DNA from: an uncultured Burkholderiales bacterium
GTDB taxonomy: Bacteria; Pseudomonadota; Gammaproteobacteria; Burkholderiales; Burkholderiaceae_F
Direction: 5' to 3'
Assembly (NCBI GenBank): GCA_903871435.1
Contig: CAIQGU010000439.1
Coordinates: 1-10,765 of the forward strand
DNA: 10,765 nucleotides
The position numbers were made by a program, and so were the translations under genes. Below, in pieces: positions 970 through 10,765 of the stretch (positions are counted from its first letter, which is position 1; every line of letters starts with the position of its first letter). The notes below the pieces were generated by a model. The model saw only the letters and a list, made by a program, of their open reading frames with translations. It did not search any database and was not told the origin of the DNA.

Positions 970-2481
970 CTACTGTACCCACTCCAGGCTGCGGCGAACC
1001 GCGCGTCGCCAGTCGTACAGCAGCGCGGCGCGCTGGTCCTCGCCCCACTGCGGCTCGAAAACCCGCTCGCTTTGCCAGAGCGCCGACAGCTCGCCGGTAT
1101 CGCTCCAGAAACCCACGGCCAGGCCCGCCAGAAATGCGGCACCCAGCGCCGTGGTCTCGATACAGCGCGGACGCACGACGGGCACGCCCAGCAGGTCGGC
1201 TTGCAATTGCATCAGCAGGTTGTTGGCGGATGCCCCGCCATCGACCCGCAGTTCGCTCAATTGGGCGCCGCCGGCGCGCAAGGCCTGGAGCAGTTCCGTG
1301 GACTGCAGCGCGATCGCCTCCAGCGCAGCGCGGGCAATATGCGCGCGTGTCGTGCCGCGCGTGAGGCCCAGCAGGCTGCCGCGCGCGTTCGGGTCCCAGT
1401 ACGGTGCGCCCAGCCCCGCAAAGGCGGGGACGAGGACCACGCCGCCGGTGTCGGGCACCTGCGCTGCCAGTGTTTCGATTTCGGCGGCCGAGCCGATGAT
1501 GCCCAGCCCGTCGCGCAACCATTGCACCACGGCGCCGCCGGCAAAGACACTTCCCTCGAGCAGATAGTTGCTCGTGCCGTCGGCCAGCCGCCACCCGACG
1601 GTTGCCAGCAGCCCCTTGCCCGGTTGGGGCGGTGTACTGCCCGTCTGCAGCAGCAGGAAACACCCGGTTCCGTAGGTGTTCTTGGCCATGCCCCGAGCGA
1701 AGCAGGCCTGCCCGAAGGTGGCCGCCTGCTGATCGCCGGCCATGCCGGCGATGGCGATCGGCGCACCGAACCACTCGGCCGAGGAATTGCCAACCACCCC
1801 GCTGGAGTCGACGATCCGCGGCAGCACGCCGGGCGGAATGCCAAACCACGCCAGCAACTGCGGGTCCCAGTCGAGGGACTGCAGGTTGAGCAGCTGGGTG
1901 CGCGAGGCATTGCTGACGTCGGTGGCATGCGCGGTTCCGCCCGTGAGCCGGGCGACCAGCCATGCATCCACGGTGCCCACGGCCAGCTCGCCGCGGTCCG
2001 CCCGCTGGCGTCCCTGCGGAACATGATCGAGCAGCCAGGCTATCTTGGTGGCGGAGAAGTAGGGATCGAGCAGGAGTCCGGAGCGCTGGCGGATGTCCGC
2101 TTCGAGGCCGCGCTCACGCAGGCGGGCGCAATCTGCCGCGGTGCGGCGGTCCTGCCAGACACTGGCGTTGGCCAGCGCGCGGCCCGAGGCGCGCTCCCAA
2201 AGCACCGTGGTTTCGCGCTGGTTGGCGATGCCGATGGCCGCCACATCCCGTGCGCTGGCGCCGGCCATGCGCAGGGCCTCCCTTGCGCAAGCCAACTGAC
2301 CCTGCCATATCTGCTCCGGATCGTGTTCCACCCAGCCGGGCTGCGGATAGTGCTGCGGCAGCTCGCGCTGGGCCATGGCCACCGTGCGACCCTGACGGTC
2401 GAAGACCAGGGCCCGCGAGCTCGTGGTGCCCTGGTCCAGGGCAAGCAGGTAGGGTCCTGGGGCAGTCCCGCTGGTTGTCAT
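970..2481 (-). CDS. glpK: Glycerol kinase (FGGY family), 503 aa
   Basis: Phosphorylates glycerol to sn-glycerol 3-phosphate with ATP. Full length for the family (about 500 aa). Seen: N-terminal phosphate-binding [16 protein letters not shown] (residues 13-28), [10 protein letters not shown] (50-59), [11 protein letters not shown] (85-95), the catalytic-base region [14 protein letters not shown] (Asp250), the FGGY-type [13 protein letters not shown] (265-277) and adenosine-pocket [17 protein letters not shown] (413-429). The start at 2481 is supported by GGAGA (complement of 2487-2491) five bases upstream; the open frame runs further up to 2688, but that extension resembles no family sequence. 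The loop before the catalytic Asp reads [15 protein letters not shown]. Compared from memory with the E. coli enzyme, the fructose-1,6-bisphosphate contact Arg236 aligns with Pro241, so FBP inhibition may be absent. No glycerol facilitator (glpF), dehydrogenase (glpD) or repressor (glpR) gene is in the window. Confidence 0.96.
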
Positions 2482-2540
2482 GTGGGTCTCCAAGTGTGGC
2501 TCGGCCCGCAACCGCCCACGGAGACGGTGCAGGGGCTGCC

Positions 2541-2580
2541 GCTCGACCGGCCTAGCCGAGACCTGAGGGGCCGGTCGAGC
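2541..2580. repeat. Perfect 12-bp inverted repeat upstream of glpK
   Basis: Left arm GCTCGACCGGCC (2541-2552) and right arm GGCCGGTCGAGC (2569-2580) are exact reverse complements separated by 16 bases. It lies 60 bases upstream of the glpK start and 113 bases before the plus-strand gene at 2694. There is no T-tract after it on either strand, so a rho-independent terminator is unlikely. It could be a protein-binding dyad (operator) or an RNA hairpin in the glpK leader. The repeat itself is certain; its role is not known. Confidence 0.8.
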
Positions 2581-2693
2581 ACAAATAAGGCGTAAAGGTG
2601 CACGGTATTCCCCCGTTCGGATGATGCCCGGCTCCGATCTACTGCAAGCCTTGGGCGGCGCGCGGCGCGCACCCATTTCCTCGGGCAAGAGCC

Positions 2694-3058: not shown

Positions 3059-4747
3059 TCAAGCCTGCGCGCGCAATTCCCGCCGCAGGATCTTGCCCAC
3101 TGGAGACTTGGGCAGCTCGTCGCGAAATTCGATGATCCGCGGCCGCTTATAGCCGGCCAGGTTGTCGTGGCAGTAAGCCACCAGCGCCGACTCCTGCAGT
3201 GCCGCGTCCTTGCGCACCACGAACAGTTTCACGGCCTCGCCGGAGTGCTCGTCCGGGACGCCGATGACGGCGCATTCCATCACGCCGGGAAAAGCCGCCA
3301 CGACATCCTCGACCTCGTTGGGATAGACGTTGAACCCCGAGACCAGGATCATGTCCTTCTTGCGGTCGACGATGCGCGTATAGCCGTTTGCATCCATGAC
3401 TCCGATGTCGCCCGTGCGCAGGAAACCTTCCGCGGTCATCACCTTGGCCGTCTCGTCGGCGCGCTGCCAGTAACCCGCCATCACCTGCGGGCCGCGAATG
3501 GCAATTTCTCCGGGCGTTCCCGGCGGCAGGCGCCCGCCGCTGTCGTCGACGATGGCCACTTCGGTGGATGACACGGGCAGTCCGATGGTCCCGGTGTAGC
3601 GATCGGTGTCCGACGGATTGCAGGTGGCCAGCGGCGATGTTTCCGACAGGCCGTAGCCCTCGCAGATCGGGCAGCCAGTGAGCGCCAGCCAGCGCTCGGC
3701 GACCGCGCTCTGCACCGCCATGCCACCGCCACCGGACAGCACCAGCGCGGAAAAATCCAGGGTGCGGAATTCGGCGTTGTTGGCCAGCGCATTGAACAAG
3801 GTATTTACGGCGGGAAAGACATGGAACCGGACCCCGCGCAGCGCGGCCACCACCGAGGGGAAATCGCGCGGATTGGGAATGAGCACGCAGCGGCCGCCTC
3901 TGCGCATGGCCACGAGGGCGCAGCAGGTTAGCGCGTAGATGTGATAGAGCGGCAGGGCGGTGACGGTGACGATCTGCTCGCCGGGGGGCGCCTTGGCGTA
4001 CGCCGGTGCGTACCAGGCCTCGGCCTGGAGAATGTTGGCGATGAGGTTGCGGTGCAGCAGCATCGCGCCCTTGGCGACCCCGGTGGTGCCGCCCGTGTAT
4101 TGGAGCACGGCGACGTCGCGCGGCGTAAGCCCGACGGGCCGAAGCGCGCGGCCTTGCCCCTTTGCCAGAACATCGGCAAACCGCAGCGAAACTGCACGCA
4201 GGCGCGGATAGGGGCGTACCAGCTTCTTGACGTGCCGCACCACGAAGTTCACCACCCAGGCCTTCGGCACCGTGAACATTTCGCCCAGGGCGCAGATGAC
4301 GACGCGGCGCGTGGGCACCTCGTCCATGACCGCTTCTACCGTATGCGCGAAATTCTCCAGCACGAACAGCGTCTGCGCGCCCGAGTCTTTGAGCTGGAAG
4401 GCAAGCTCGTGCGGCGTGTACAGCGGATTGACATTGACCACGGTGGCGCCGGCCCGCAGCGCCCCGAAAAAGATGACCGGGAAGTGCAGGACATTGGGCA
4501 GCATGATGGCCACGCGCTCGCCCGGAACCACGCCCTCGGACTGCAGCCATGCCGCCACCGCGGCGCTGCGTCGGTCAAGCTCCGCGTAGCTGAGATCGAC
4601 ACCCATGCAGGTGTAGGCAATCTGCGCGGCGTTGGCGCGTAGAGAATCCTCCAGTATGGCCACCAGGGAGGGGTAGGCGTCGGCATTGATCTCGGCGGGC
4701 ACGCCGGGGGGATAGCTCTTGAGCCAGATGCGCTCTGCCAAATCCAT
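3059..4747 (-). CDS. fadD: Long-chain acyl-CoA synthetase (fatty acid-CoA ligase), 562 aa
   Basis: Activates free fatty acids to acyl-CoA through an acyl-adenylate, using ATP and CoA, at the inner face of the cytoplasmic membrane; entry step of beta-oxidation. Nearly the same length as E. coli FadD (561 aa) and similar along its whole length. Seen: VNVNPLYTPHELAFQLKDSG (104-123), the ATP/AMP-binding loop YTGGTTGVAKGAML (217-230), LPLYHIYALT (265-274), GYGLSETSP (364-372), LRTGDIGVMD (443-452), the fatty acyl-CoA synthetase signature DRKKDMILVSGFNVYPNEVE (461-480) and the C-terminal PKSPVGKILRREL with the adenylation lysine Lys552. The ATG at 4747 has a strong AGGAGA (complement of 4755-4760) seven bases upstream. 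It is the third gene leftward in the minus-strand group, 102 bases after the molybdoenzyme, and could share its transcript or have its own promoter in that gap. Confidence 0.95.
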   Translation of the reverse strand: MDLAERIWLKSYPPGVPAEINADAYPSLVAILEDSLRANAAQIAYTCMGVDLSYAELDRRSAAVAAWLQSEGVVPGERVAIMLPNVLHFPVIFFGALRAGATVVNVNPLYTPHELAFQLKDSGAQTLFVLENFAHTVEAVMDEVPTRRVVICALGEMFTVPKAWVVNFVVRHVKKLVRPYPRLRAVSLRFADVLAKGQGRALRPVGLTPRDVAVLQYTGGTTGVAKGAMLLHRNLIANILQAEAWYAPAYAKAPPGEQIVTVTALPLYHIYALTCCALVAMRRGGRCVLIPNPRDFPSVVAALRGVRFHVFPAVNTLFNALANNAEFRTLDFSALVLSGGGGMAVQSAVAERWLALTGCPICEGYGLSETSPLATCNPSDTDRYTGTIGLPVSSTEVAIVDDSGGRLPPGTPGEIAIRGPQVMAGYWQRADETAKVMTAEGFLRTGDIGVMDANGYTRIVDRKKDMILVSGFNVYPNEVEDVVAAFPGVMECAVIGVPDEHSGEAVKLFVVRKDAALQESALVAYCHDNLAGYKRPRIIEFRDELPKSPVGKILRRELRAQA

Positions 4748-4849: not shown

Positions 4850-7000
4850 CTAGGCCGATGATACGCGGGCTGTACCGGAGCCCGCCATGCGCACCTCCAC
4901 GAGGCAATCGTAGAAGGTGGCCCCCCCGCCCAGGTCGGTCAGGCGCTGACTGGTGACTTCATTGGCATTCTTGCCATCGGCAGCGAGCTTCTTCCACCAG
5001 ATGGACAGTGCCACCACCACCCCGGGACGGGCCTTTTCGCTCACTCGGGCGCGCAGCATGAAGGAGCCGCGGTCGTTGAATACCTCCACCCGGTCGCCCT
5101 CGACGATGCCGCGCGCGGCCGCATCCTGGGGGTGGAGCTCCAGGTGCGGTTCCCCCTCGGTGTCCCGCAGGCTCACGACATTGACGAAGCTTGAGTTGAG
5201 AAAATTGCGCGCCGGCGGGGAAATTATGGCCAGCGGAAAACGCGCGGCCAGTTCCGGGCTGCTCTGCATGCTCTCAAACGGCGCAATGAAATCGGGCAGC
5301 GGATCGTGGCCCTGGGCGGCAAGGCGTTCCGATGTGAATTCGCAGCGGCCGCTGGGCGTGGGGAATTTCCCTTCCGCGAACGGCGCATAGGGCTGGGGCA
5401 GGTCCAGGCGCTGCCAGCCGTCGCGGCGCAGCCGCTCCCAGTCATAAGGTGAGGCGCCGCACGAGTGGAAAGCGCTGGCAGCCAAGGACTCGTCGGTTTC
5501 CACAAAGCACGGGTCGTCAAATCCCATGCTCTGCGCCAGACGGCGGAATATCTCGGTATTCGGCAACGATTCACCCAACGGTGCTATGGCCGGATTGTTG
5601 GCGAGCTGGTACAGATGCCCGTACGACAGGTGGACATCCACGTGCTCGAGCTGAGTCGTGGCCGGCAGCACGATATCGGCATAGTCCGCCGTGTCCGTCT
5701 GGAAATGCTCGAGGACGACGGTGAACAGGTCATCGCGCGCGAAGCCGCGCGCTACCTCCCCCGACTGCGGCGCTACCGCTACCGGATTGCTGTTGTAGAC
5801 GATGACGGCTTCGACGGCCGGCGCGGCGTGCAGCAGAGCGTCGCCGATGGCGCTCATGTTGAGCGTGCGCGGCGTGCGGCCGGCCAGCAGGTCCGGCCGT
5901 TCCAAGGCTTCATGGTTGACCTGGAAGGTGCCGCTGCTCGACAACAGCAAGCCGCCGGCTGGGTCGCGCCAGTGGCCCGCCAGCGCCGGGAGGCAAGCAA
6001 TTGCCCGCACGGCGTTGCCACCACCGCGCGTGCGCTGAATGCCGTAATTGAGCCGTATGGCCGTGGGGCGAATCTGCCAGTAGTCGTGCGCGAGCCGTTC
6101 TATCGTGCCGGCGCCGATGCCGCAGATGTGGGCGACGCGCTCGGGATCGTAGGCAAGCGCCCGCTCCGCCAGGGCAGCAAAGCCCAGGGTGTAGCGCTCG
6201 ATGTAGTCGCGATCGAGCCAGCCTTCCCGGATGAGCACATGCATGATGCCAAAGGCCAGCGCCCCATCGGTACCCGGCAACGGTGCGATGTGTTCATGGC
6301 AGCGCTCGGCGGTGAGCGAACGGTAGGGGTCGATGGCGATGAGGCGGGCGCCGCGGCGTTTGGCCTCCTGGGCGCGGCTCCACAGGTGTAGGTTGGAACC
6401 CACGGCATTGGTGCCCCAGAAGATGATCTGCCGGCTGTTTTCGAATTGTTCCATGTCCATACCGACGCTGGCTCCCAGCGTATGGCGCAGGCCCTGGCTG
6501 CCGGCCTCAGAGCATATGGTGCGATCCAGGCGGCTCGCCCCCAGCTTGTTGAAGAAGCGCTGGGCCATGGATTCGCCCTGCACCAGCCCCATGGTTCCCG
6601 CATAGCTGTAGGGCAGTATGGCTTCAGGGTTGCGCGACGCAATGGCGCCCAGACGCTGCGCGATTTCGTCGAGGGCACGGTCCCAACTCACTGGCTCGAA
6701 GCGGCCGGCTCCCTTGCGGCCGATGCGCCGCAGCGGGGTGAGAACACGGTCGGCGTGATAGGTGCGTTCCAGGTAGCGGCTGACCTTGGTACAGAGCGCG
6801 CCCCCGGTGGGGGGATGGTGCGGATCGCCGGCAATCTTGATAGCGATGCGGCGCTCGCCGTGGCGTTCCACCGTGACCTGCATGGCGCAGGTGTCGGGGC
6901 AATCGTGGGGACAGGCCGCCTGGACGATTTCTCGTGGGATATCCGGCTGCCGTGCCGCCGCATCCCCGCCCGCCAAAGGCTCACGTTCGCCCGGATTCAT
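4850..7000 (-). CDS. Cytoplasmic molybdopterin oxidoreductase (DMSO reductase superfamily), 716 aa
   Basis: Mo/W-bis-PGD enzyme of the formate dehydrogenase/nitrate reductase/DMSO reductase superfamily; substrate unknown. An N-terminal [4Fe-4S] motif is formed by Cys30, Cys34 and Cys38 (CPHDCPDTCAM) and Cys70 (GGALCTKVSRYLERTYH). Cys163 in TICSEAGSQGL sits where NapA and formate dehydrogenases carry their Mo ligand Cys/Sec, so Cys ligation is likely (inference). IIFWGTNAVGSNLHLW and LIAIDPYRS are cofactor-binding core motifs. The C-terminal dinucleotide-binding domain (about 588-716) ends with NEVTSQRLTDLGGGATFYD. There is no twin-arginine signal or membrane segment, so it should be cytoplasmic. 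The start at 7000 is fixed by GGAGGG (complement of 7006-7011) five bases upstream. The open frame continues to 8077 through the next gene, but that part is an out-of-frame shadow. It begins 59 bases after the flavoprotein stop, so an operon is likely. No dedicated small or membrane subunit is adjacent; the flavoprotein may supply or accept electrons. Confidence 0.9.
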   Translation of the reverse strand: MNPGEREPLAGGDAAARQPDIPREIVQAACPHDCPDTCAMQVTVERHGERRIAIKIAGDPHHPPTGGALCTKVSRYLERTYHADRVLTPLRRIGRKGAGRFEPVSWDRALDEIAQRLGAIASRNPEAILPYSYAGTMGLVQGESMAQRFFNKLGASRLDRTICSEAGSQGLRHTLGASVGMDMEQFENSRQIIFWGTNAVGSNLHLWSRAQEAKRRGARLIAIDPYRSLTAERCHEHIAPLPGTDGALAFGIMHVLIREGWLDRDYIERYTLGFAALAERALAYDPERVAHICGIGAGTIERLAHDYWQIRPTAIRLNYGIQRTRGGGNAVRAIACLPALAGHWRDPAGGLLLSSSGTFQVNHEALERPDLLAGRTPRTLNMSAIGDALLHAAPAVEAVIVYNSNPVAVAPQSGEVARGFARDDLFTVVLEHFQTDTADYADIVLPATTQLEHVDVHLSYGHLYQLANNPAIAPLGESLPNTEIFRRLAQSMGFDDPCFVETDESLAASAFHSCGASPYDWERLRRDGWQRLDLPQPYAPFAEGKFPTPSGRCEFTSERLAAQGHDPLPDFIAPFESMQSSPELAARFPLAIISPPARNFLNSSFVNVVSLRDTEGEPHLELHPQDAAARGIVEGDRVEVFNDRGSFMLRARVSEKARPGVVVALSIWWKKLAADGKNANEVTSQRLTDLGGGATFYDCLVEVRMAGSGTARVSSA

Positions 7001-7059: not shown

Positions 7060-8367
7060 TTAGACCTCGCCGCGGTGCGTCTCGAACATGACGCCGATCT
7101 TCTTGAGGAGCGGCGTGGGCAGCTCGCCGCCCGCGCAGACGATCACGATGTCGTTGCGGATGGCCACGTCCTTTTCCTCGTACTTGAGGTGCACCTTGTC
7201 GGTCTCGATCTGGGAAATGCTGGACTTGAGCATGACGCGCAGGCGCCCGGCGTCCTGGGCCGACTTGAGCGCGCTGCGGTTCTTTTCCTTGACGCGGCTG
7301 AACGCCTCGCTGCGGTAGGAGATGGTGACCTTCGACCCGGGCTGCTCCGCCACTGCCACGGCCGCCTCGAGCGCGCTGTCGCCGCCGCCCACCACCAGGA
7401 CCCGCTGACCCTTGTATTGCTCCGGGTCGATCAACCGGTAGACCACCTTGGGCGAGTCCTCGCCGGGCGCCCCGAGCTTGCGCGGCGTGCCCCGCCGGCC
7501 GATGGCCAGCAGCACCGTCTTGGCTTGGTAATTGCCGCGCTGGGTCTGCACGACAAACCCTTCGCCGGAGCGCTCGATTGCTTCCATGCGCTCGCGGAAG
7601 GAGACCTGGAGCCCCGTCTTTTTCATGACGCCGTTCCAGAATTCCAGCAGTTGCTCCTTGCTCACCTCGGTGAACTTCACCTTGCCGATGATGGGCAGGT
7701 TTACCGGTGCGGTCATCGCGATCTTGTTGCGCGGATAGTGGTAAACCGCTCCGCCCAGCGAGTCTTCCTGCTCGATCAGCTTGTACTTGAGCTTGTGCTC
7801 TATCGACGCCAGGCCGGCGGCGATGCCGGCGGGCCCGGCCCCGACGATGACGACGTCGAATTCGGCATTGCCCTTCATGGCCGCGCGCGCCGCATTGATG
7901 GCCTGGCGCCCCTGCTCGGCGCACTTGCGGATCAGGCCCATCCCCCCCAGTTCGCCGGCGATGAAGATGCCCGGAACATTGGACTCGAAGTTGGGCTTGA
8001 CCATGGGAATGTCGATGCCGCGCTTTTCCGTGCCGAACACGAGCTTGATTGCCTCGACGGGGCAGGCCGGAAAACACGCGCCATGGCCGATGCAGCTGGC
8101 GGCGCCAACCAGCACCGCCTTGCCGTCGACAACGCCCAGGGCACCTTCCGGACAGGCCTTGACGCAGGCCCCGGAGCCGATGCAGCGGCCCAGGTCGACC
8201 ACGGGATGCAGGGACGGCGGTTCGGTCAGGCCGGCAGCCACCGATTCGAGCAACAGCTCTTCATGAACCTCGGTGCGCGCCCGGTGGTTCCGTATGTAAA
8301 TGGCCATCGCCACCGCGGCCGGTATCCCGTAGATCAGCCAGGGAATCAGATTATTGACAGATTGCAT
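7060..8367 (-). CDS. Membrane-anchored ferredoxin-flavoprotein oxidoreductase with permuted reductase fold, 435 aa
   Basis: Predicted NAD(P)H/FAD oxidoreductase fused to a two-cluster ferredoxin; electron partner unknown. Order seen: one hydrophobic helix (about 6-25, LIPWLIYGIPAAVAMAIYI), anchoring it with the rest probably cytoplasmic; ferredoxin motifs CIGSGACVKACP (62-73) and CIGHGACFPACP (92-103); a segment NVPGIFIAGELGGMGLIRK with EQGRQAI (130-157) that in thioredoxin-reductase-like proteins is C-terminal; the FAD-binding VVIVGAGPAGIAAG (172 on, GxGxxG at 176-181); the NAD(P)-binding VLVVGGGDSALEAA (323-336); and an end at AGGELPTPLLKKIGVMF...GEV without the usual closing GD segment. 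The second Cys of each ferredoxin motif is replaced (Ser65, His95). No thioredoxin-reductase CxxC was found. The ATG at 8367 is preferred because it directly precedes the membrane helix; no clear ribosome site is visible, and upstream in-frame ATGs (8421, 8472) give family-unlike sequence. First gene of the leftward group. Confidence 0.88.
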   Translation of the reverse strand: MQSVNNLIPWLIYGIPAAVAMAIYIRNHRARTEVHEELLLESVAAGLTEPPSLHPVVDLGRCIGSGACVKACPEGALGVVDGKAVLVGAASCIGHGACFPACPVEAIKLVFGTEKRGIDIPMVKPNFESNVPGIFIAGELGGMGLIRKCAEQGRQAINAARAAMKGNAEFDVVIVGAGPAGIAAGLASIEHKLKYKLIEQEDSLGGAVYHYPRNKIAMTAPVNLPIIGKVKFTEVSKEQLLEFWNGVMKKTGLQVSFRERMEAIERSGEGFVVQTQRGNYQAKTVLLAIGRRGTPRKLGAPGEDSPKVVYRLIDPEQYKGQRVLVVGGGDSALEAAVAVAEQPGSKVTISYRSEAFSRVKEKNRSALKSAQDAGRLRVMLKSSISQIETDKVHLKYEEKDVAIRNDIVIVCAGGELPTPLLKKIGVMFETHRGEV

Positions 8368-8867: not shown

Positions 8868-9827
8868 ATGAGCTCCGCAGTATTACCCGAATTTAAGCCC
8901 GACAGCGGCAAGCCCGATGACAAGGTCAATAGCATTGAAGCGGCCAAGGCGGCCGTACCCTTCGTCATCGAACCGCGCCCGAGTGCTGTAAAAAAAGACC
9001 GCTCCTTCGGGGCGGTCATGTGCTCGACCGCGGTCGGCATCCTTGTGGCGTACGCCATCGGCCGCAGCGGCTGGTTCACCCCGGGGGACGACGTCGGCTA
9101 CTACGTGGGGCTGGTCGGCGGCGTGCTGATGCTGCTGCTGCTGCTCTACCCATTGCGCAAGCACGTTGCAGCGCTACGCAACTGGGGGGCCGTCAAGCAT
9201 TGGTTCTCCATCCACATGATCCTGGGCATTTCCGGCCCCATCCTGGTCCTGGCGCACTCCACGTTCCACATGCGCTCGACCAATGCAGCGGTCGCCCTTG
9301 TTTGCATGCTGGTGGTGGCCGGCAGCGGCATCGTGGGGCGGTTTTTCTACACCAAGGTCCACCGCGGTTTGTATGGCGAGAAGCTCAATCTCCAGGAACT
9401 GCAGGCCGAGTCGGGGGTGGAGTCGGCGCAGATTCAATCGCGGCTGCACTTTGCGCCCACAGTGGAGAAGCGGCTGGCCGACTTCCAGGCTTTCGCCCTG
9501 GCAAAGCGCAACGGGCTGATCGAAGACACCATGCGTTTCATGGCCCTGGGACTGCGCCGCCACCAGGTGTCGCGCGCCTGCCGGACGGATCTGGCGGTTA
9601 CCTTGCGTGCCGCCGCCGAGGCGCGCTCCTGGGACGAGCCCAAATACCAGCGGCGCTTCAAGGCCGCCACCGACCTGGTTGACGAGTTCTTGAGCGCCAC
9701 CCAGCGCGTTGCCGAATTTGGCGTCTACGACCGCCTGCTGCAACTCTGGCACGTTGCCCACGTACCCCTCGTCTACCTGCTGGTGATCAGCGCCATCGCC
9801 CACGTCGTCGCGGTCCACATGTACTGA
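8868..9827 (+). CDS. Di-heme b-type membrane cytochrome, 319 aa
   Basis: Predicted inner-membrane electron carrier; I cannot assign a named family. After a soluble N-terminus of about 45 residues come five hydrophobic helices: about 47-65, 76-96, 112-133, 139-161 and 293-316. Helix 3 carries His116 and His130 and helix 5 carries His298 and His312; each pair is 14 residues apart, the spacing expected for two stacked b hemes. His111, His134, His295 and His317 lie near the helix ends. A hydrophilic, charged stretch of about 125 residues (165-290), probably helical, separates helices 4 and 5. The start at 8868 is the first ATG near the conserved-looking part; its ribosome site is weak, and the frame remains open upstream to 8607 with unlikely sequence. 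The multiheme cytochrome follows 13 bases later, so co-transcription is very likely. It probably links quinones or the cytoplasmic flavoprotein to that cytochrome (inference). Confidence 0.8.
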   Translation: MSSAVLPEFKPDSGKPDDKVNSIEAAKAAVPFVIEPRPSAVKKDRSFGAVMCSTAVGILVAYAIGRSGWFTPGDDVGYYVGLVGGVLMLLLLLYPLRKHVAALRNWGAVKHWFSIHMILGISGPILVLAHSTFHMRSTNAAVALVCMLVVAGSGIVGRFFYTKVHRGLYGEKLNLQELQAESGVESAQIQSRLHFAPTVEKRLADFQAFALAKRNGLIEDTMRFMALGLRRHQVSRACRTDLAVTLRAAAEARSWDEPKYQRRFKAATDLVDEFLSATQRVAEFGVYDRLLQLWHVAHVPLVYLLVISAIAHVVAVHMY

Positions 9828-9840
9828 TGGGGCGGCCGTA

Positions 9841-10765
9841 ATGCTCTTCACCCAACTGCGCCGGGCACCGGTGCTGAGCCGGCCCAGCGCTGCCCTGCGG
9901 GGTGTGATTGCCGTCCTGGCGCTCGCCATGGCCACGTTGCTGGCTCCCGCCGGGGCCACAACCCTGGAGGGGGTGCTCTCGCCCGGCGAACTCATCCAGG
10001 GTCACGCCAAGGCCGAATCCAGTTGCGACAACTGCCACGCGCCCTTCAAGAAAACCGGCCAGGACGAACTCTGCGAGAAATGCCACAAGGACGAGAAGCG
10101 CGACATCGATGAAAGGATCGGTTATCACGGGCGCATCAAGGACCGTGGCCTGTGCCGCAGCTGCCACGTCGACCACAAGGGCCGGACCGCCCAGGTAGTC
10201 ATCCTGGACGAAAAGAAATTCGATCACACCCAGACCAATTACGAACTTAAGGACAGCCACCAGAAGGTGGAGTGCGCCAAGTGCCACCTGCCCAAGGCCA
10301 AGCACCGCGACGCCTACAAGACCTGCGTCGCCTGCCACAAGAAGGACGACGACGCCAAGGGCCACAAGGGCACGCTGGGCGACAAGTGCCAGGACTGCCA
10401 CACGATCAAGAAGTGGAAGGACACCTTCTTCGATCACGACAAGACCCATTTCCCGCTGCGCAATGCCCATGCCGACCCCAAGGTCGCCTGCAAGGATTGC
10501 CACCCGAACAATCACTTCAAGAACACGCCTACGGACTGCTACGCCTGTCACAAGAAGGACGACGACAGCAAGAACGGCCACCACGGCCGCTATGGCCAGA
10601 AGTGCGAGACCTGTCATACCGACAAGAAGTGGGACGTTATCAAGTTCGACCACAACCGGGACACCAAGTACCAACTGCTGTTCAAGCACGCCGACGCCAA
10701 GAAGGTAAAGTGCAACGACTGCCATACCGGCAAGAATCTCTACAAGGACAGCAACGGGTGCATCA
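9841..10765 (+). CDS. Exported multiheme cytochrome c, at least 10 hemes, 3' end beyond window
   Basis: The visible 308 residues begin with an export signal: basic residues, hydrophobic GVIAVLALAMATLLAPAGA (21-39), and likely cleavage after Ala39. Ten CXXCH motifs start at residues 62, 78, 105, 145, 162, 183, 217, 233, 255 and 291, and Cys307 probably begins an eleventh. Many other His residues could be distal ligands. The protein is Lys/Asp/His-rich and built of about 71-74-residue three-heme units: CxxCHKKDDD, then a KCxxCHTxKKW motif, then FDH and a CxxCH after an H-A-D stretch (162-232 and 233-306), with a more diverged unit at 78-161. This resembles cytochrome c3/c7-type periplasmic or outer-membrane multiheme proteins. 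The start at 9841 follows GGGGCGG (9829-9835) and lies 13 bases after cytochrome b. Role (inference): periplasmic acceptor or donor for the membrane cytochrome b. Confidence 0.93.
   Translation, partial: MLFTQLRRAPVLSRPSAALRGVIAVLALAMATLLAPAGATTLEGVLSPGELIQGHAKAESSCDNCHAPFKKTGQDELCEKCHKDEKRDIDERIGYHGRIKDRGLCRSCHVDHKGRTAQVVILDEKKFDHTQTNYELKDSHQKVECAKCHLPKAKHRDAYKTCVACHKKDDDAKGHKGTLGDKCQDCHTIKKWKDTFFDHDKTHFPLRNAHADPKVACKDCHPNNHFKNTPTDCYACHKKDDDSKNGHHGRYGQKCETCHTDKKWDVIKFDHNRDTKYQLLFKHADAKKVKCNDCHTGKNLYKDSNGCI

Follow-up and report, generated by a model that had tools for sequence, protein, structure and literature searches.

Flavoproteins with two dinucleotide-binding domains, such as those of PF13738, are built in the order FAD, NAD(P) and FAD-closing segment. 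The window considered here, a stretch of 10,765 nucleotides from an uncultured Burkholderiales bacterium, holds a gene (7060..8367, minus strand) whose product departs from this order. Two questions are raised by this locus: whether the protein is a circular permutation of the thioredoxin-reductase-like fold, and in which electron-transfer system a membrane-anchored enzyme of this kind would take part.

Layout of the flavoprotein and of its iron-sulphur domain

The gene encodes a permuted, membrane-anchored Fe-S flavoprotein of 435 residues, the translation of the ORF being a 100% match to a protein of its own genome (P0002). A transmembrane anchor is found at the N terminus by hydropathy (residues 7-25, 8293..8349, minus strand, as are all features of this gene), within a helix that spans residues 2-44 in the AlphaFold2 model. 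The mean net charge around the anchor in 143 homologues is -0.2 before it and +2.5 after it, and because the positive residues follow the anchor, the soluble part of the protein is predicted to be cytoplasmic.

The anchor is followed by a ferredoxin-like domain (approximately residues 52-111, 8035..8214; Pfam Fer4_10 at 55-103). The preliminary description of this DNA, made from its letters, speaks of a ferredoxin domain, and here a correction has to be made, as the domain is not of the standard 2[4Fe-4S] kind. Instead of two CxxCxxCxxxCP motifs, the alignment gives CxxSxxCxxxCP for motif I (CIGSGACVKACP, residues 62-73, 8149..8184), with a serine at residue 65, and CxxHxxCxxxCP for motif II (CIGHGACFPACP, residues 92-103, 8059..8094), with His95 in place of the second cysteine. 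Across the 143 aligned homologues, residue 65 is a cysteine 84 times, a serine 58 times and an alanine once, and residue 95 is a histidine throughout. According to the part of the source at hand, CxxHxxC ferredoxins from elsewhere have been isolated as [3Fe-4S] proteins, versions with His or Asn having a more positive potential and the version with Ser a clearly lower one (PMC6237146).

The relocated FAD-closing segment comes next (residues 116-160, 7888..8022), supported by a closing-segment HMM, a canonical-order profile and conservation; it includes, within residues 126-160, the sequence ESNVPGIFIAGELGGMGLIRKCAEQGRQAI. A short linker (residues 161-169, 7861..7887), with a median length of 10 residues and a range of 1-16 in 264 sequences of the short permuted family to which this protein belongs, leads to the FAD and NAD(P) core (residues 170-435, 7063..7860). 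The core holds the FAD GxGxxG (residues 176-181, 7825..7842), whose glycines are invariant in the 143 aligned homologues, and the NAD(P) motif GGGDSA (residues 327-332, 7372..7389). With 151.8 bits against Pyr_redox_3 (PF13738), for a gathering threshold of 30, the protein belongs among the flavoproteins with two dinucleotide-binding domains. The arrangement proposed in the preliminary description is thereby borne out in the 435-residue translation: the closing segment (residues 130-157 in that description) precedes the FAD motif at 176-181 and is placed between it and the ferredoxin domain, and the chain stops right after the NAD(P) domain.

The cysteines of the flavoprotein are, in full, those at 62, 68, 72, 92, 98, 102, 149 and 411, and no CxxC is present outside the ferredoxin motifs in the whole 435-residue sequence. 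Since it has no redox-active CxxC in the NADPH domain, the protein does not count among the disulfide reductases that work like thioredoxin reductase, and this candidate was ruled out; the position of the closing segment at the front is a further difference from thioredoxin reductase. A close known system is the bacillithiol disulfide reductase YpdA/Bdr (TIGR04018; PDB codes: 7a76, 7a7b). Against this model the flavoprotein reaches 165 bits, for a cut-off of 339.9, and it differs from YpdA/Bdr in being permuted and in carrying the anchor and the ferredoxin domain in addition.

Downstream on the same strand, a molybdopterin oxidoreductase of the DMSO reductase/formate dehydrogenase superfamily (716 residues, 4850-7000) starts 59 bp after the flavoprotein stop; its 25 listed NCBIfam matches are all below cut-off. 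Such an oxidoreductase also adjoins the flavoprotein in locus L001 (72% identity), and none was seen in the other named loci compared. The window also contains an AMP-binding acyl-CoA synthetase-like gene, identified with Pfam (3059-4747, minus strand), and an ORF that we take to be glycerol-kinase-like (970-2688, minus strand). In 12 of 21 loci a repeat protein follows the flavoprotein, with ankyrin and Sel1 repeats in one of them (L009:6400-8394, plus strand).

Identity of the relocated segment

The canonical-order profile and the closing-segment HMM were both built only from seven canonical-order relatives (ORFs of 811-896 residues), found on searching 299 genomes of the phylum, and in these relatives the closing piece stands after the NAD(P) domain (for example, ESSVPGLYIIGALAGYPLIKQALNQGYEVVEAI). 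The HMM gives 34.1 bits at residues 120-159 of the flavoprotein, compared with a maximum of 6.9 bits among 3860 shuffled proteins. In three positive controls from outside the profile set (L136, L027 and L142) it matches after the core, with 98.8, 15.9 and 9.2 bits, and on rows more distant than these it finds no match.

The canonical profile, for its part, aligns to the flavoprotein in two pieces, positions 1-264 on residues 170-431 and positions 231-309 on residues 81-160. The second match resembles a closing segment only from about residue 116; the earlier part falls on the ferredoxin motif and is probably a spurious alignment. As the two pieces cover the profile up to position 309 with no gap, they point to a circular permutation in the sequence. 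When the chain is rejoined in the canonical order, a single domain match over positions 1-309 is obtained with 245.6 bits, compared with 197.5 for the highest-scoring single domain of the unaltered chain. The full-sequence score goes from 232.9 to 245.8, a gain of 12.9 bits that is small since both parts already contribute to the score before rejoining. Rejoining with twenty shuffled segments gives at most 202.8; full scores of up to 248.1 were reached when other 50-residue pieces of the core were appended, a control judged invalid in the analysis. Also, the YpdA model TIGR04018 ends at position 264 of 316 on the flavoprotein and at 265 on a protein of a second, longer permuted family, compared with 289 on a canonical-order relative.

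The permuted order is kept in homologues, a check that the preliminary description had called for. Every sequence scored, 264 of the short family and 121 of the long one, has the segment ahead of the FAD core; these correspond to 259 and 121 distinct sequences (six locus copies repeat a listed protein) and come from lists of the best 120 of each search plus the loci, not from a random sample. No closing match above -1.9 bits was found after the core in the sequences scored. Moreover, residues 126-153 have the highest conservation among nine regions compared in 143 aligned short-family proteins (mean of 0.885), with G138-L145, Q152 and G153 invariant.

The long family (P0122 and P0243-P0362) is permuted in the same way, its closing segment lying close to the N terminus. 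It differs from the flavoprotein in lacking the N-terminal ferredoxin domain, and in the one member scanned a NapH-like membrane ferredoxin region is found after the NAD(P) domain. No multihaem cytochrome was seen near a long permuted gene in the one neighbourhood looked at. One protein of this family (L101:6908-9241, minus strand) is encoded among glycosyltransferases, a methyltransferase, DUF2064, DUF547 and a radical SAM gene, and a homologue of 1099 residues (P0338) carries PF04784 (DUF547) itself.

A different reading of these data is that there is no functional permutation, the enzyme having no closing segment and the N-terminal look-alike being a separate module, for example the stretch that precedes the FAD motif in AhpF. 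AhpF models do run collinearly with the flavoprotein from residue 130 onwards: residues 131-349 align to positions 171-380 of TIGR03140 and residues 130-342 to positions 170-377 of PDB 1hyu, which places the segment on that preceding stretch. Because of these matches, the segment was scanned alone as a check of the AhpF reading, and AhpF is not among the matches of the isolated segments of the flavoprotein and of loci L012 and L021. The segments of L012 and L021 give weak NCBIfam matches (E of 0.0026 to 0.1) at the profile ends (TIGR04018, 268-314 of 316; TIGR01316, 406-447 of 449; TIGR01292, 256-297 of 300), and the match to Pfam Pyr_redox_2 (258-291 of 291) is likewise at the end of the profile, that is, in the closing region of FAD enzymes. 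The flavoprotein's own segment gives a single weak match in NCBIfam (E of 0.02), on positions 423-461 of 468 of protoporphyrinogen oxidase, and no match in Pfam; none of its 13 matches in the PDB is significant (E of 0.24 or more), and 8 of the 13 are chains of thioredoxin reductase, ferredoxin-NADP reductase or MnmG. In-place closing rests on profiles, coevolution and an unsuperposed model, which leaves the AhpF-like reading some room. Nonetheless, the HMM scores, the conservation of the segment, the complete coverage of the canonical profile and the couplings described below stand against it, and we regard it as extremely improbable.

The AlphaFold2 model of the flavoprotein is confident (pLDDT of 87.9, pTM of 0.79) and has a strand at residues 134-137 and a helix at 147-163; its comparison with solved structures was made with chain-order aligners and covered the residues from about 165-170 onward. 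Coevolution couples the moved segment to two strands of the FAD domain, 170-175 and 279-288, through the pairs I157-V172, I157-L286, A163-T284 and I134-L287, as would be expected if the moved strand and helix close the FAD site. Among the top 20 couplings between segment and core, 6 fall on these two strands for 1.05 expected; the excess fades among the top 100 (10 for 5.26 expected), and many top couplings lie off both strands, such as K115-I424, N130-M427 and I157-Y211. Together, profiles and coevolution support a segment that closes the FAD site in situ, in the manner of canonical enzymes.

Neither sequence nor coevolution distinguishes between closing in cis and in trans, and enzymes of the canonical order in this superfamily often form dimers. 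The segment could then close the FAD site of the neighbouring subunit in an obligate, domain-swapped dimer. This arrangement appears quite unlikely to us, given that the linker between closing segment and core is short, with the median of 10 residues mentioned above, and that the AlphaFold2 monomer is confident at the closing segment. Closing within the same chain is thus preferred, and the circular permutation put forward in the preliminary description, supported by the profile mapping, the order in homologues and the couplings, stands as a fact at the level of sequence, with good indirect structural support.

Association with a PCC3-type membrane protein and multihaem cytochromes

On the opposite strand, the window encodes a divergently transcribed PCC3-type inner-membrane protein of 319 residues (8868..9827, plus strand), followed by a multihaem cytochrome c that is open at the window end (9841..10764, plus strand) and shows 10 CxxCH before that point; its homologue in L001 has 24. 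The membrane protein has five hydrophobic segments, an SGXXG motif (SGIVG, residues 153-157) and two WX3HX13H motifs, W112-H116-H130 (9201..9257) and W294-H298-H312 (9747..9803), in each of which the tryptophan and both histidines are invariant in 45 aligned proteins. In the text of He et al. 2017 available to us, PCC3 comprises a porin, two kinds of multihaem cytochrome (one extracellular, the other periplasmic with a median of 21 haems) and an inner-membrane protein, which has about 300 residues, five transmembrane segments, SGXXG and two WX3HX13H (PMC5566968). The neighbour has each of these inner-membrane traits, length included, and so corresponds closely to this component. In homologous loci the haem numbers of the cytochromes agree as well: in the 40 compared, the cytochrome adjoining the membrane gene has between 18 and 68 CxxCH, with 21 or 24 in 31 of them and single cytochromes of 62 to 68 in some.

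No porin or extracellular multihaem cytochrome is encoded within the window; in many relatives a second multihaem cytochrome is present. Outer-membrane proteins typically end in F, and a neighbouring protein has this ending in 6 of 7 clustered ORFs, and again in 6 of 7 additional loci. Modelling of the membrane protein gave no convincing match to known folds, including the NAD(P)H-fed diheme b transporters of the FRD/NOX type. The model shows a long helical insert (residues 165-290, 9360-9737, plus strand) between the fourth and fifth hydrophobic segments, which we would tentatively place in the cytoplasm from its charges and which could possibly serve as a docking site for the flavoprotein.

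The flavoprotein and the membrane protein co-occur in a near-obligate manner. In 299 genomes of the phylum, the membrane protein is present in 4 of 4 carriers of the short permuted flavoprotein and in 0 of 295 others (cut-offs of E <= 1e-130 for the flavoprotein and E <= 1e-50 for the membrane protein; best other membrane match, 1.2e-11). In 300 genomes of the order the figures are 17 of 17 and 0 of 283 (best other match, 3.5e-14), the two samples overlapping in at least G000, G246 and G170. In both searches, no more than five flavoprotein candidates per genome were scored, so that weak copies could escape. The flavoprotein is also present in 12 of 99 genomes from the phylum of L012 (Nitrospirae per its record).

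At the level of loci, the membrane gene lies in the same stretch as the short permuted flavoprotein in 41 of 50 cases, and within 1 kb in 26; a cytochrome with at least nine CxxCH is found in 45, and both together in 40. Of the 9 loci without the membrane gene in the fetched stretch, 8 belong to genomes that encode it elsewhere (E <= 1.1e-69); in two of these, G302 and G311, it shares a contig with the flavoprotein. Only in the flavoprotein genome G365 was no membrane gene seen.

The association could also arise if the flavoprotein were a helper of cytochrome c maturation, a reductant for haem or thiols that tracks PCC3 through its many haems. Of 21 loci, 9 have a gene of the CcmI/CycH type close to the flavoprotein, and further ccm-type genes, which from their sequences we take to be CcmA-, CcmF- and CcmG/H-like, adjoin it in four (L003, L005, L006 and L022); Pfam confirms CycH domains in L006. 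Against such a helper, the flavoprotein has no CxxC for thiol chemistry, and it was not found in 283 of 300 genomes of the order, c-type cytochromes being far more widespread than that. We therefore consider this explanation very unlikely. A functional link of the flavoprotein to PCC3, to which co-occurrence and gene order point and which the preliminary description does not mention, would be more consequential than the permutation itself.

Proposed role and direction of electron flow

Taken jointly, it is likely that the flavoprotein is a circularly permuted member of the YpdA/thioredoxin-reductase-like group, fused to an anchor and a ferredoxin domain, and that it acts as the cytoplasmic redox module of PCC3, probably as an NAD(P)H-FAD-FeS module. 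In the proposed scheme, NAD(P)H would reduce the FAD, which would hand single electrons to the Fe-S clusters; from these, electrons would pass to two b haems of the inner-membrane protein, then to the periplasmic cytochrome of 21 or 24 haems and finally to the porin and the extracellular cytochrome. Cofactor binding by the flavoprotein, its contact with the membrane protein and the direction of the flow are all steps that we infer.

Electrons leaving NAD(P)H outwards would run downhill, whereas inward transfer to NAD(P)+ is uphill, with both the potential difference and the membrane voltage opposing it. For this reason, and because CxxHxxC clusters elsewhere are [3Fe-4S] clusters of relatively positive potential, outward flow is moderately favoured. 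On the other side, motifs with serine, like motif I here, are described as lower in potential in the part of the source at hand (PMC6237146).

The reverse direction, in which Fe(II) or another outside donor would feed PCC3 and then the flavoprotein, leading to the reduction of NAD(P)+, would give autotrophs a direct source of NAD(P)H. In the text of He et al. at hand, PCC3 is reported from iron oxidisers, with a model in which electrons enter from outside and reach the quinone pool through a quinone-active membrane protein (PMC5566968), in agreement with uptake. Considering the uphill step and the relatively positive potential of CxxHxxC clusters elsewhere (PMC6237146, same part), inward flow is rather doubtful.

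Those passages of He et al. also weigh against a role of NAD(P)H in PCC3, since quinone is proposed there as the partner (PMC5566968). The four components listed in them do not include the flavoprotein, and the main text contains none of the whole words NADP, FAD, thioredoxin and ferredoxin, with NADH appearing once. In the portion seen of a table covering 87 iron oxidisers (PMC10734462), a 4Fe-4S protein cluster, which may or may not be the flavoprotein, is assigned to 41 and a potential periplasmic PCC3 cytochrome to 42. PCC3, a porin-cytochrome system whose cytochromes are very large, is termed functionally unverified in the accessible part of a 2025 paper (PMC12442390), and no description of the permutation or of a link between the flavoprotein and PCC3 was found in the open-licence PMC papers searched.

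The canonical-order relatives (L094-L100) offer a comparison, as they share a related core and closing segment with the flavoprotein but keep the latter in its usual place; in the one member scanned, cNMP-binding domains and, near the C terminus, an Fe-S domain (Fer4_11 match) were detected. In 6 of the 7 loci they are adjoined by a 10-haem cytochrome and by a PCC4-like membrane protein, a distant relative of the PCC3-type one that scores 40-72 bits against the PCC3-type profile. In the available text of He et al., subgroup II of PCC4 has a pfam13247 gene upstream of the membrane protein and a 10-haem cytochrome, and PCC3 and PCC4 membrane proteins are stated to have no significant overall homology (PMC5566968). 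It would appear from this that the canonical-order sister is that PCC4 gene, and these loci may encode a cyclic-nucleotide-linked electron conduit. More generally, with somewhat less than an even chance, PCC3 and PCC4-like conduits would both be NAD(P)H-driven transmembrane electron exporters with a split, NOX-like organization, in which a flavin/Fe-S module, permuted in PCC3 and canonical and cNMP-linked in PCC4-like conduits, delivers electrons to two b haems, from which a chain of c haems takes over (10 of them in PCC4-like conduits; in PCC3 21-24, with more than 60 at the upper end).

Finally, a natural circular permutation of the thioredoxin-reductase-like fold in two protein families would be, if true, a useful case for fold evolution. 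For the organisms that carry it, the co-occurrence of the flavoprotein with PCC3 components suggests how this putative wire to the outside may connect with the cell's NAD(P)H. The link of PCC3 to the cytoplasm has so far only been modelled, and the flavoprotein gene is a specific candidate that makes the choice between quinone and NAD(P)H a testable question.
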